Shown piece by piece: positions 43,168-52,475 of a stretch of DNA of 64,000 nt. The position numbers and the translations under genes were made by a program. This stretch comes from Planctomycetota bacterium (lineage in GTDB: Bacteria > Planctomycetota > Phycisphaerae > Phycisphaerales > SM1A02), in the NCBI GenBank assembly GCA_022568135.1, contig JADFFQ010000004.1:1-64000 (forward strand), read 5' to 3'. The notes under the pieces were generated by a model that did no database searches, was not told the origin of the DNA, and worked only from the letters and a program-made list of their open reading frames with translations. Numbering within the stretch: position 1 is the stretch's first letter; every line of letters starts with the position of its first letter.

Positions 43168-43415
43168 CATTGAAGGTTCATCAAGTCGGGGCCCGCCCTC
43201 CAAGCAGAGCGGTGAGGTGTCATATTCCATGACGGTTTCAGCGATGGCCGAGCGAGTCAAGCAGACTCCGGCCAATTGAGGTTCTGTACGCCATGTATAA
43301 CCTGTGAAGTAAGAGACAGTGGCCGGAGTAGTCTGACACCAGTTTCGGACCAATGTGACGGCAGGAGTGTGATCGTCCAAACATGATGTCAACCAGACTT
43401 TCCGAGGCTGATTCG

Positions 43416-44078
43416 ATGCAAACGGTGTACGTCTTCATTGACGAATCAGGCAATTTCGACTTCAGCCCGAAGGGGTCACGCTATCTCCTTTTCACGGCGG
43501 TTTCTGCGCAGCGTCCGTTCCTGCTCGACGCAGCCCTGACGGAACTCAGATTCGATCTGCTTGAACAGGGGCATGACATTGAATGCTTCCATGCCTCTGA
43601 AGATCTCCAGCTGATCCGTGATGCCGTGTTCGGCGTAATCCAAAAGGGCTTGAAGCACTTTCGAGTTGACTCGGTGATTGTCGAAAAGGCGAAAGCCAAT
43701 CCGGTCATTCGGCCACCTGAGAAGTTCTACCCGATGATGCTCGGATACTTGCTGAAATATGTGATCGGTGGATTTGACCTCTCCAAGGTCAAAGAGGTGA
43801 TCGCCATAACCGATACGCTTCCCGTTCAGCGAAAGCGACAGATCATCAGAGGCGCAATCAAACCGAAGCTGGCCGCGATGCTTCCAGAGACCGCCAAGTA
43901 TCGCGTGCTACACCATGCGTCCAAGTCGTGTTGCGGTCTCCAGATCGTAGACTACGTGAACTGGGCAATTCAACGGAAGTGGGGCACTCAACAGGATCAC
44001 CGGAGCTACAATCTGATTCGAGAATCGATCGTCAGCGAGTTCGACATCTTCCGTTTTGGCGATACGGTCCACTACTAA
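43416..44078 (+). CDS. DUF3800 domain protein
   Basis: 220 residues with the DUF3800 hallmark MQTVYVFIDESGNFDFSPKG, followed by YLLFTAVSAQRP. Conserved later parts are the DSVIVEKAKA strand and SCCGLQIVDYVNWAIQRKW. The fold is RNase H-like, with catalytic-type Asp9/Glu10 and Asp in LQIVDYV, so nuclease activity is plausible but undemonstrated. DUF3800 genes are often in accessory islands, sometimes in phage-defence loci. GC is visibly lower than its neighbours, and a transposase remnant lies downstream, both suggesting acquisition. Upstream ATGs at 43383/43386 are possible starts. Confidence 0.85.
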   Translation: MQTVYVFIDESGNFDFSPKGSRYLLFTAVSAQRPFLLDAALTELRFDLLEQGHDIECFHASEDLQLIRDAVFGVIQKGLKHFRVDSVIVEKAKANPVIRPPEKFYPMMLGYLLKYVIGGFDLSKVKEVIAITDTLPVQRKRQIIRGAIKPKLAAMLPETAKYRVLHHASKSCCGLQIVDYVNWAIQRKWGTQQDHRSYNLIRESIVSEFDIFRFGDTVHY

Positions 44079-50261: not shown

Positions 50262-50839
50262 GGGCGCGTCGTCGTACTGTAGTGTAGCCGACGATGGTTC
50301 TCCGCACCCACCGACCCGCCCCATAAAGCCGTCGCATCCTCGCTCCTTGTAAAGCCGCGACCATCGGTCGCGGTCTTCGGACAGAACCCTCTCCCGGCCA
50401 AGGGGAGAGGCCACGGTGAGGGGTGAAACACTTGGTCGCGGTCTTCTCTTCCGCGCCATCGATGCTCGACGCCGAACAACCCCCGTCACGGACCGCCCTC
50501 ATCCCACCGAGCCGCGCCATAAAGCGGTCCCGACTCCATCGGGAGTGGTCGCGCAAGGATCGCGGATGGGCCATCATGAGGGATCAGGCGAGACGCGGGC
50601 TGACCGCTGATGGCTGAAAGCTGCTCTCTCTCCCCCTCCTTCCAGCGGGGGACGCACGCGGAGCTAGGGGAAACCCTGGTAGCGGAAACGTACCTGTTGC
50701 GTGTTGTAGCCCGTTCTCTTGCCCACGGCATTCATCAGATTGCATCGGATGGAAATGAATAACCCACCGAAACAGCGGGAATCGGCCAAAAACCGCCTTG
50801 AGACGCTTCCAACCGTGACCGAATGCACAGCCATTAGAC
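50262..50839. other. Intergenic repeat mosaic
   Basis: About 580 bases without a gene, built of repeat fragments. These are: the REP palindrome copy 3 (50351-50377); an 'ACCCTCTCCCGGCCAAGGGG' word with 'AGAGGCCACGGTGAGGGGTG' (about 50389-50427), a dispersed element of many bacterial genomes; a half REP (50434-50445); an inverted pair CCGACTCC / GGAGTGG near 50530; and 'GCTGACCGCTGATGGCTGAAAGC' cut here at twenty (GCTGACCGCTGATGGCTGAA, about 50598), related to the fragment near 36309. Both holA and the HEPN module must be transcribed from its edges. Confidence 0.65.
50351..50377. repeat. Extragenic palindrome CCGCGACC-N3-GGTCGCGG, copy 3
   Basis: AAAG-CCGCGACC-ATC-GGTCGCGG-TCTT; identical to copy 1 except for the loop (ATC instead of GCT), i.e. 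stem conserved, loop varied. Confidence 0.8.
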
Positions 50840-50854
50840 GTCACTTGTAGTGAC
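50840..50854. promoter_or_regulatory. Perfect dyad upstream of the HEPN module, candidate operator
   Basis: GTCACT-TGT-AGTGAC, overlapping a second dyad CTTGT-AGTG-ACAAG, 107 bases before the first gene in AT-rich DNA. An autoregulatory site is plausible because both gene products seem to carry winged-helix-like segments. The CTTGT...ACAAG half resembles the dyad upstream of aceB. Confidence 0.4.
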
Positions 50855-50960
50855 AAGGTAATCAATATCAAAAGTAGTTTCTTGGACCCCTTGCCTTTGT
50901 CTTCCATTAGTAGTACCCTAACATCATCGAAATTAGGCATAAAAGAAAGGAATTCCAACG

Positions 50961-51542
50961 ATGGCCGCCACCGCTTCTCTTTCCGTGACTCTCGGACAAG
51001 TCTTTGAACTCATTGAGCCATTGGACTCTGAGGATCGCCACAAGGTAATTGCGAGCGTCATGGCACTCCTTGGCGAGCAACCGATTGATTCCCGCATCGG
51101 CGGACGTGGCTTTGGCCCGAACGGGGGGGGAGGCGACGTCAGGTTCGGGGATCGCGAAATAGGGCGAACCGCACGCCGCTGGATAAGTCAGCATCAACTG
51201 GACGCTGACATCATCGAGCAGGTCTTCCACTTCGACCAAGCCTGCGTGGAGATCATCGCCGCTTCTGTTCCCGGGTCGACAATGAAGCAACAGACTGGCA
51301 ACGCGTATCTACTTACGGGTCTCCGGGCGTTGCTTGAGAAAGACGATAGCAGATTCACGGACAAAGAGGCGCTAGCGCTGTGCAAGCACCTTGGCTGTTA
51401 TGACAAGAATAACCATACGGCGAACAGGAACGCGATCGGTAACAAGGTCGCCGGTAACAGGCAGTCCGGGTTTACTCTACCTGCACCTGGCCTGAACGCT
51501 GCGGCTGAGGTTGTGCGCCAGATCGCAAAGACCACGCAGTGA
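50961..51542 (+). CDS. Hypothetical protein, first gene of a two-gene HEPN module
   Basis: 193 residues, soluble. The N-terminus is helical (LGQVFELIEPLDSEDRHKVI), followed by a Gly-rich linker coded by a run of eight G (51123-51130). The C-terminal part, FTDKEALALCKHLGCYDKNN then ANRNAIGNKVAGN and SGFTLPAPGLNAAAEVVRQI, has the look of a winged helix-turn-helix. ATG at 50961 has AAGGAA eight bases upstream. The stop is one base before the next start, so the pair is an operon. GC is lower than in the flanking housekeeping genes. Family not recognised; a regulator, sensor or antitoxin-like role is inference from context. Confidence 0.7.
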   Translation: MAATASLSVTLGQVFELIEPLDSEDRHKVIASVMALLGEQPIDSRIGGRGFGPNGGGGDVRFGDREIGRTARRWISQHQLDADIIEQVFHFDQACVEIIAASVPGSTMKQQTGNAYLLTGLRALLEKDDSRFTDKEALALCKHLGCYDKNNHTANRNAIGNKVAGNRQSGFTLPAPGLNAAAEVVRQIAKTTQ

Positions 51543-51543
51543 G

Positions 51544-52278
51544 ATGCTAACAGCGGACCAACTCAAGCACGTCATACACTTCGACAGTCGGTCTCAGCGT
51601 GACTGCGTGCTACTTATTCTGGGTGTTGAGGTGAGGGCCCCAAAGGACATTGCCGCGATCCGCGAGGTCGGGGCGCGCGCTGGCGTGCGCAAGATCACCT
51701 GTTGGAATATCTCCGATGTCCTCGCAAAGGCCGTGGGTCTGGCGATCAAAACCACTGATGGATGGGAGTTGACTAGCCAAGGACAGCAGCACGTTCAAAC
51801 GCTCATTGCCGTAACGGATTTGAATATCGTTGTTGCAAACGCTTCTCAGTCGCTCCGTCAACATCTCACATTAGTGACAAAACCGGAATCAGCGGCATTC
51901 ATCGAGGAAGCCATTGTCTGCTTTGAAGCGCGGCAATATCGAGCAGCCGTGATTCTCTCCTGGGTCGGTGCCATTTCCATTCTTCACCATAAAGTATTCA
52001 ACGGTCACTTGGCGGCGTTCAATGCAGAGATCATGCGTCGCGATGCGAAGGCTCGTCCTCTCAAGAACGTCGATGGTTTCTGTCGAATCGGTGAACATGA
52101 TTTTCTGGATGTTATTGAGTACATCGGGGTCATTGGAAAGAATGTCAAACAGACACTCCAGAATCAATGCTTGCAACTTAGAAACGCGTGTGGCCATCCC
52201 AACACACTGCGCATTGCGGAAAACGCCGTTGCGGCGCATATCGAGATACTCATTCTCAATGTGTTCTCGAAGTTCTGA
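51544..52278 (+). CDS. HEPN-domain protein with N-terminal winged-helix-like region
   Basis: 244 residues. The N-terminal about 90 residues (APKDIAAIREVGARAGVRKI, WNISDVLAKAVGLAIKT, GWELTSQGQQHV) look like a winged helix-turn-helix. The C-terminal about 130 residues form a helical bundle: EEAIVCFEARQYRAAVILSW, then a DFLDVIEYIGVIGKN helix, and the HEPN signature R213-NACG-H218 in LRNACGHPNTL (Rx4H), followed by NAVAAHIEILILNVFSKF. HEPN proteins with this motif are usually metal-independent RNases in toxin-antitoxin, abortive-infection or RNA-defence systems. It starts one base after the preceding stop. Confidence 0.75.
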   Translation: MLTADQLKHVIHFDSRSQRDCVLLILGVEVRAPKDIAAIREVGARAGVRKITCWNISDVLAKAVGLAIKTTDGWELTSQGQQHVQTLIAVTDLNIVVANASQSLRQHLTLVTKPESAAFIEEAIVCFEARQYRAAVILSWVGAISILHHKVFNGHLAAFNAEIMRRDAKARPLKNVDGFCRIGEHDFLDVIEYIGVIGKNVKQTLQNQCLQLRNACGHPNTLRIAENAVAAHIEILILNVFSKF

Positions 52279-52286
52279 CTGTATTC

Positions 52287-52334
52287 GGGAACGGAAGAGG
52301 GAACGGAAGAGGGAACGGAAGAGGGGACGGGAGT
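52287..52334. repeat. 12-bp tandem repeat, four units
   Basis: GGGAACGGAAGA three times perfectly, then GGGGACGGGAGT (imperfect), followed by C and seven T. It starts eight bases after the HEPN gene stop. It could double as a weak terminator (T7) or mark a recombination junction. Confidence 0.85.
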
Positions 52335-52343
52335 CTTTTTTTC

Positions 52344-52475
52344 TTGTTGACTGATCCCTTCAACGAATGTCCCGGCGGCTTCAACGCCGACTGCACCGTC
52401 GATGCGTTCGACCTGTCAACCCTGCTGGCGTGCTGGAGCGGACCCGAGAACGCCGGTCTTTGGGCGGAGCTATGA
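52344..52475 (+). pseudogene. Remnant of a dockerin-type / EF-hand-like C-terminus
   Basis: Reads TDPFNECPGGFNADCTVDAF then DLSTLLACWSG before a stop. It matches the 'D.NGDCTVDVFDLL.LLA.WG' dockerin-like calcium loop repeats common at C-termini of planctomycete secreted proteins. No upstream coding part survives; the 12-bp repeat precedes it directly. A scrap of a lost gene. The rest of the 52279-52586 gap holds nothing else. Confidence 0.6.

Follow-up and report, generated by a model that had tools for sequence, protein, structure and literature searches.

Two small genes, lying one base apart between a DNA pol III delta-like gene and an FHA-GAF-histidine kinase gene, raise the question of what such a pair is for. 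It has ordinary neighbours, outside any recognisable defence island, and could encode an immune module, a toxin-antitoxin pair, a regulator or nothing functional at all. The reading we favour, with a probability of roughly 0.55, is that of a horizontally mobile two-gene immune module acting by abortive infection. Coordinates below refer to the window, that is, the whole 64,000-nt stretch of DNA that was analysed. Both open reading frames described in an initial sequence-only reading were recovered intact and in place. The features used are as follows:

50829 to 52278, plus strand: whole mobile unit, comprising the promoter region and both genes, as delimited by blastn homology to the ortholog locus L042
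50840 to 50854, no strand: dyad GTCACT-TGT-AGTGAC, named in the sequence-only reading and present in the sequence
50891 to 50919, plus strand: putative sigma-70-like promoter, with a -35 box TTGCCT (50891-50896), a 17-nt spacer and a -10 box TACCCT (50914-50919), read by eye
50946 to 50952, plus strand: ribosome-binding-site-like AAAGGAA, 8 nt 5′ of the gene 1 ATG, from sequence
50961 to 51542, plus strand: gene 1 (ATG 50961 to TGA 51542, 193 aa), type-A partner protein with an N-terminal helical hairpin (residues about 8-45), a Gly-rich linker and a conserved C-terminal region (about 70-190)
51544 to 52278, plus strand: gene 2 (ATG 51544 to TGA 52278, 244 aa), effector with a winged helix (residues about 9-90) and a HEPN domain (about 93-241), from the AF2 model and comparisons
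52180 to 52200, plus strand: HEPN active-site motif R213-N-A-C-G-H218-P219 of gene 2, conserved in the alignment
52287 to 52330, no strand: 12-bp tandem repeat 3′ of gene 2 and outside the conserved unit (TRF, 3.7 copies, score 81)

Gene 2 is best read as a winged helix-HEPN fusion and a predicted RNA-cutting effector. Its AF2 model (pLDDT 84.6, pTM 0.58) displays a winged-helix pattern followed by helices only and, together with remote winged-helix matches, supports the N-terminal winged helix that had been proposed from the letters. We assign the remainder to HEPN on the strength of an invariant RxxxxH motif, the helical model and a set of profile matches. The motif had been noted correctly: R213, N214, H218 and P219 are invariant in 13/13 aligned sequences (the alignment omits the G352 copy), in agreement with the HEPN R-x(4-6)-H criterion. 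Residues 93-241 are all helical in the model, with pLDDT mostly 86-96, falling to 75-79 near the C-terminus. As for the matches, the Dandelion-HEPN profile matched the HEPN part of gene 2 marginally (E 0.0012), over the first HEPN helices. The PD-T7-3 model gave weak matches in gene 2 relatives (best E 0.0012, plasmid relative P0014) and none with the window protein. The clear match was to phrog_27609, a phage family without known function (1e-12 with one relative, 7e-6 with window gene 2). Foldseek with the gene 2 model retrieved no HEPN structure, the top matches being winged helices or unrelated folds; nothing significant was found against PDB and viral models, where weak matches were mostly winged helices. 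No AbiJ_NTD, HEPN or other Pfam model matched gene 2 (P0001) at E up to 10.

A winged helix had also been read at the C-terminus of gene 1. This was not supported: the AF2 model has a pLDDT of 40 and profile comparison of the C-terminal half gave no significant match, nor any tie to the other winged helices. For gene 1, NCBIfam and PADLOC gave no match, Pfam offered nothing beyond a DUF2482 line that was not significant, and no nucleotidyltransferase family of Pfam, NCBIfam or PADLOC was matched. More generally, no meaningful family was found for either window protein in these three collections, and the pair indeed falls outside named systems, PADLOC-DB 2.0 having no family for either gene at E up to 10. 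An Rfam search of 49-54 kb of the window gave no match.

To delimit the unit, we compared the locus with its closest ortholog, L042, also from Planctomycetota (68/79% identity to the window pair). Homology by blastn runs from 50829 to 52278, the gene 2 stop (75.8% over 1452 nt), with none outside, and L042 is flanked by a pseudouridine-synthase-like gene and a mraY-like gene (by eye), unlike the window. In G368, a genome of the same family, the orthologs of the window flanking genes are divergently oriented and separated by about 100 bp, the pair being absent; this arrangement is an empty site. The corresponding interval in the window is about 2.3 kb and contains the pair, dispersed repeats, the 12-bp array and a gene remnant. 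As far as sequence comparison goes, it is thus confirmed that the pair moves horizontally as one unit between unrelated flanks. G+C content, taken against the 64,000-nt window (62.6%), is 57.4% for gene 1 and 51.6% for gene 2, and third-position G+C is 65 and 57, respectively, versus 71-80 in five other window genes. With transfer as a unit, the empty site in G368 and the low G+C of gene 2, the pair behaves as a mobile conflict-type cassette. Gene 2 is present in one copy in the source genome. Against L042, dN/dS is about 0.16 for gene 1 (0.185/1.148, NG86) and about 0.11 for gene 2 (0.118/1.092, NG86); both genes are under purifying selection.

The DNA around the pair was then considered. A counterpart of the putative promoter exists in L042, with equal spacing and near-identical hexamers (TTGACT/TACCCT); we grade it weak because a consensus scan made no call at that site. 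The upstream dyad is real, but its proposed role as a conserved operator is not sustained: only about half of it survives in L042 and the stretch folds with an unremarkable energy (z 0.55), so that a function for the dyad is unsupported. It was rejected as operator on the ground of its lack of conservation in L042. The repeat mosaic upstream had been taken as a mark of the insertion site. It does exist, but is not specific to that site, since its pieces have 37 matches genome-wide (one being the mosaic itself) and therefore correspond to dispersed REP-like repeats; as such they do not mark this insertion, and the mosaic was rejected as the cause of insertion. Short palindromic REP-like repeats of this kind, for example CCGCGACCATCGGTCGCGG, occupy 50280-50760 and are dispersed in the source genome. 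On the other side, the 12-bp tandem repeat next to the pair proved genuine, and positions 52376-52475 carry a remnant resembling the end of a dockerin-type domain (CPGGFNADCTVDAFDLSTLLACWSG). An ORF at 43383-44078, some 7 kb away from the two genes, resembles a DUF3800 protein (FIDESGNF).

Relatives of gene 2 were collected by whole-genome searches and a GTDB scan with a four-sequence alignment, plus plasmid tblastn; the GTDB scan with gene 2 alone as query gave nothing. In Planctomycetota they were found in G238, G352, G095, G229, G244, G439, G532, G555, L037, L039 and L042. Other phyla are represented by L040 (Thermodesulfobacteriota) and L043 (Nitrospinaceae), and one relative was detected by tblastn on plasmid pLM19O1 (Ochrobactrum). 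Gene 2 is rare in the samples of the phylum (9/392 genomes at E<=0.01, three of them marginal) and of the class (8/397). No match was obtained by plasmid tblastn with gene 1, gene 2 or the gene 1 ortholog, or by phage tblastn with one distant gene 2 relative, and viral contigs searched with two gene 2 alignments contained no relatives.

Absence of co-occurrence in other genomes had been set beforehand as a refutation of the sequence-only reading, and the pair withstood this test. A co-directional partner gene was found upstream in 13/13 loci with a complete or nearly complete gene 2 and available upstream sequence: the window, G238, G352, G095, G244, G439, G532, G555, L037, L039, L040, L042 and pLM19O1. 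This count leaves aside the copies of L020 and L043, which end at contig edges, and G229, where a type-B partner lies on a separate contig. Partner and effector are mostly within about ten bases of each other or overlapping. The partners are of two kinds. Five loci carry type A, the type of window gene 1: the window, G238, G352, L037 and L042. Type B, defined by a KIRI-x-G-x-IE-x-EG N-terminus followed by a winged-helix-like C-terminal part, occurs in six (G244, G439, G532, G555, L039 and L040); the class of the pLM19O1 and G095 partners is less certain. In G352 (L018 4746-7023, CP087563) three genes are found, a type-A partner, a second partner-like protein and gene 2. The latter diverges at its C-terminus beyond RNGC, and the GHPN portion of the motif is missing; this copy is probably broken or inactivated. 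The G244 pair has a type I MTase as well as a YhcG/PDC-S02 protein next to it, and that of pLM19O1 adjoins DUF4238-Pers. Separately, the type-B N-terminal domain is found together with a winged helix in proteins encoded at L052, L054 and L056, with no effector gene alongside; these may be a housekeeping relative.

The relatives also show an exchange of domains. Two TIR proteins begin with a segment matched by the N-terminal 75 residues of the gene 2 group (E 5.7e-13); at their C-terminal end both carry PF10137, CAP12/PycTIR (1.6e-24 and 3.6e-19). The same winged helix is thus joined to HEPN or to a CAP12/PycTIR TIR, which indicates that the effector domain was exchanged. On the partner side, the N-terminal hairpin of gene 1 reappears at L048 and L049 (E 6e-7 and 8e-7), in the partners that precede the TIR proteins there. 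The L048 partner is 43.8% identical, over 105 aa covering the linker and C-terminal part, to the type-B partner of L053, whereas their N-termini differ (type-A hairpin versus type B), so that the partner N-terminal domain is exchanged too. These comparisons show that partner N-terminal and effector catalytic domains are exchanged independently. In a second subgroup, the partner C-terminus is homologous to the effector N-terminus, a winged helix (E 1.3e-8).

Several of these loci deserve description in their own right. L048 3241-4447 and L036 3821-5205 are pairs of a partner and a winged helix-TIR protein (PF10137), a TIR counterpart of the window module. L049 3039-4774 carries a partner with a type-A hairpin, then a different TIR-like protein (PF13676, under the curated cut-off). 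At L053 102-1827 there are three genes: a type-B partner is accompanied by a second adaptor-like protein, and the third product has a DUF4145 HEPN (E 2.2e-6) at its C-terminal end, with a weakly similar winged helix (E 0.008).

How might such a module work? Gene 1 would be made just before gene 2 from one transcript. Its conserved C-terminal part would bind the effector and keep it inactive or poised, while its variable N-terminal part would report infection, the presumed trigger. Gene 2 would stay dormant, with the winged helix as the coupling piece. Upon triggering, HEPN, probably as a dimer, would be released and would cut RNA, its likely target, via R213 and H218, and translation would then stop. 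We base the immune-module reading on strict co-occurrence, the close or overlapping placement of partner and effector in most loci, transfer as a unit, the empty site, the low G+C of gene 2, domain exchange, the winged-helix homology of partner and effector in the second subgroup and the defence neighbours of relatives. Against it stand the ordinary window neighbours, the lack of relatives in the viral contigs searched, the lack of plasmid matches with the window proteins and the absence of HEPN structures from the Foldseek results.

A serious rival, even if we think it unlikely, is a type II toxin-antitoxin pair, in which gene 2 would encode a HEPN toxin and gene 1 a labile antitoxin that both neutralises it and represses the operon via the dyad, the whole stabilising mobile DNA. 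A small upstream gene, the one-base spacing, the HEPN toxin fold and the mobile unit would all suit it. However, the dyad is not conserved in L042, the window unit is a lone chromosomal pair and not plasmid-borne, and in relatives the effector slot is filled by CAP12/Pyc-type TIR effectors, which are normally signal-activated and not merely neutralised. Where abortive infection is weighed against toxin-antitoxin, domain exchange leans toward a sensor/effector module. We regard as improbable a regulatory pair whose winged helices would control host transcription or RNA processing, and whose HEPN would bind RNA or protein without killing. The presence of winged helices agrees with this, as does the occurrence of type-B N-terminal-domain proteins alone beside housekeeping genes (e.g. 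TldD-like, by eye), but the catalytic R and H are invariant, and patchy distribution, mobility, TIR exchange and defence neighbours better fit conflict systems. Finally, a decaying gene pair inserted inertly into a repeat-rich intergenic region, as the upstream mosaic, the downstream tandem repeat and gene remnant and the truncated motif of G352 could suggest, is very improbable, since both window genes are intact and their dN/dS values already disfavour it.

To return to the immune module, we tentatively raise the possibility that the pair belongs to an undescribed class of two-gene immune modules, mainly of Planctomycetota and also present in other phyla, where a winged helix couples interchangeable sensor domains, carried by the upstream partner, to interchangeable killer domains (HEPN, CAP12-type TIR or DUF4145 HEPN). 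If true, this would add to the immunity of Planctomycetota a sensor-effector architecture that is both compact and modular; for this phylum, our literature search found no paper on HEPN defence. Partners and effectors with a common winged helix should then bind each other, a HEPN to TIR swap should alter the killing chemistry and not the trigger, and many 'hypothetical' gene pairs could be more easily annotated.

Within a partial coverage of the literature, no description of the pair was found in PMC3710099, PMC12839542, PMC10853773, PMC7159879 and PMC8195603. Several known systems nevertheless share traits with it. Like type II toxin-antitoxin systems, it combines a toxin-like gene with a small gene upstream, the two being inherited together in 13/13 loci. 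It resembles MNT-HEPN toxin-antitoxin systems in that a HEPN gene lies next to a second gene, but gene 1 has no nucleotidyltransferase match. With the HEPN superfamily at large (Anantharaman et al. 2013, PMC3710099), gene 2 shares an all-helical C-terminal domain with the RxxxxH motif; its N-terminal domain is elsewhere fused to TIR and a relative adjoins R-M genes. No family combining a winged helix, HEPN and an obligatory upstream partner was found among those consulted in that paper.

PD-T7-3 and Dandelion (PDB 9wx2, 9wxf) are single-gene HEPN proteins with weak similarity to the gene 2 group over the first HEPN helices. They are about 430-460 aa long, with an N-terminal HEPN and a long C-terminal part, whereas gene 2 is 244 aa long, carries its HEPN C-terminally behind the winged helix and is always paired. 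A literature search for 'Dandelion' as a defence-system name found no relevant paper. Apart from the pair, L035 5411-7419 encodes two HEPN-like proteins within a DISARM-like island (by eye: helicase, DUF1156-like methylase), the larger resembling the PD-T7-3/Dandelion class.

AbiJ offers a further parallel: exchangeable N-terminal domains precede its HEPN and are also found before TIR and nucleases, according to PMC3710099, and gene 2 likewise has an exchangeable N-terminal domain ahead of HEPN. AbiJ is, however, described as a single protein without obligatory partner, and AbiJ-NTD models do not match gene 2. A last comparison is with the CAP12/PycTIR effectors (PF10137; PADLOC PDC-S35). No CBASS/Pycsar cyclase was recognisable by eye among the ORFs adjoining the pair. 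In G698 and G677 these TIR effectors are fused to a gene 2-type winged helix with a partner upstream, an arrangement in which the window protein bears HEPN in place of TIR.
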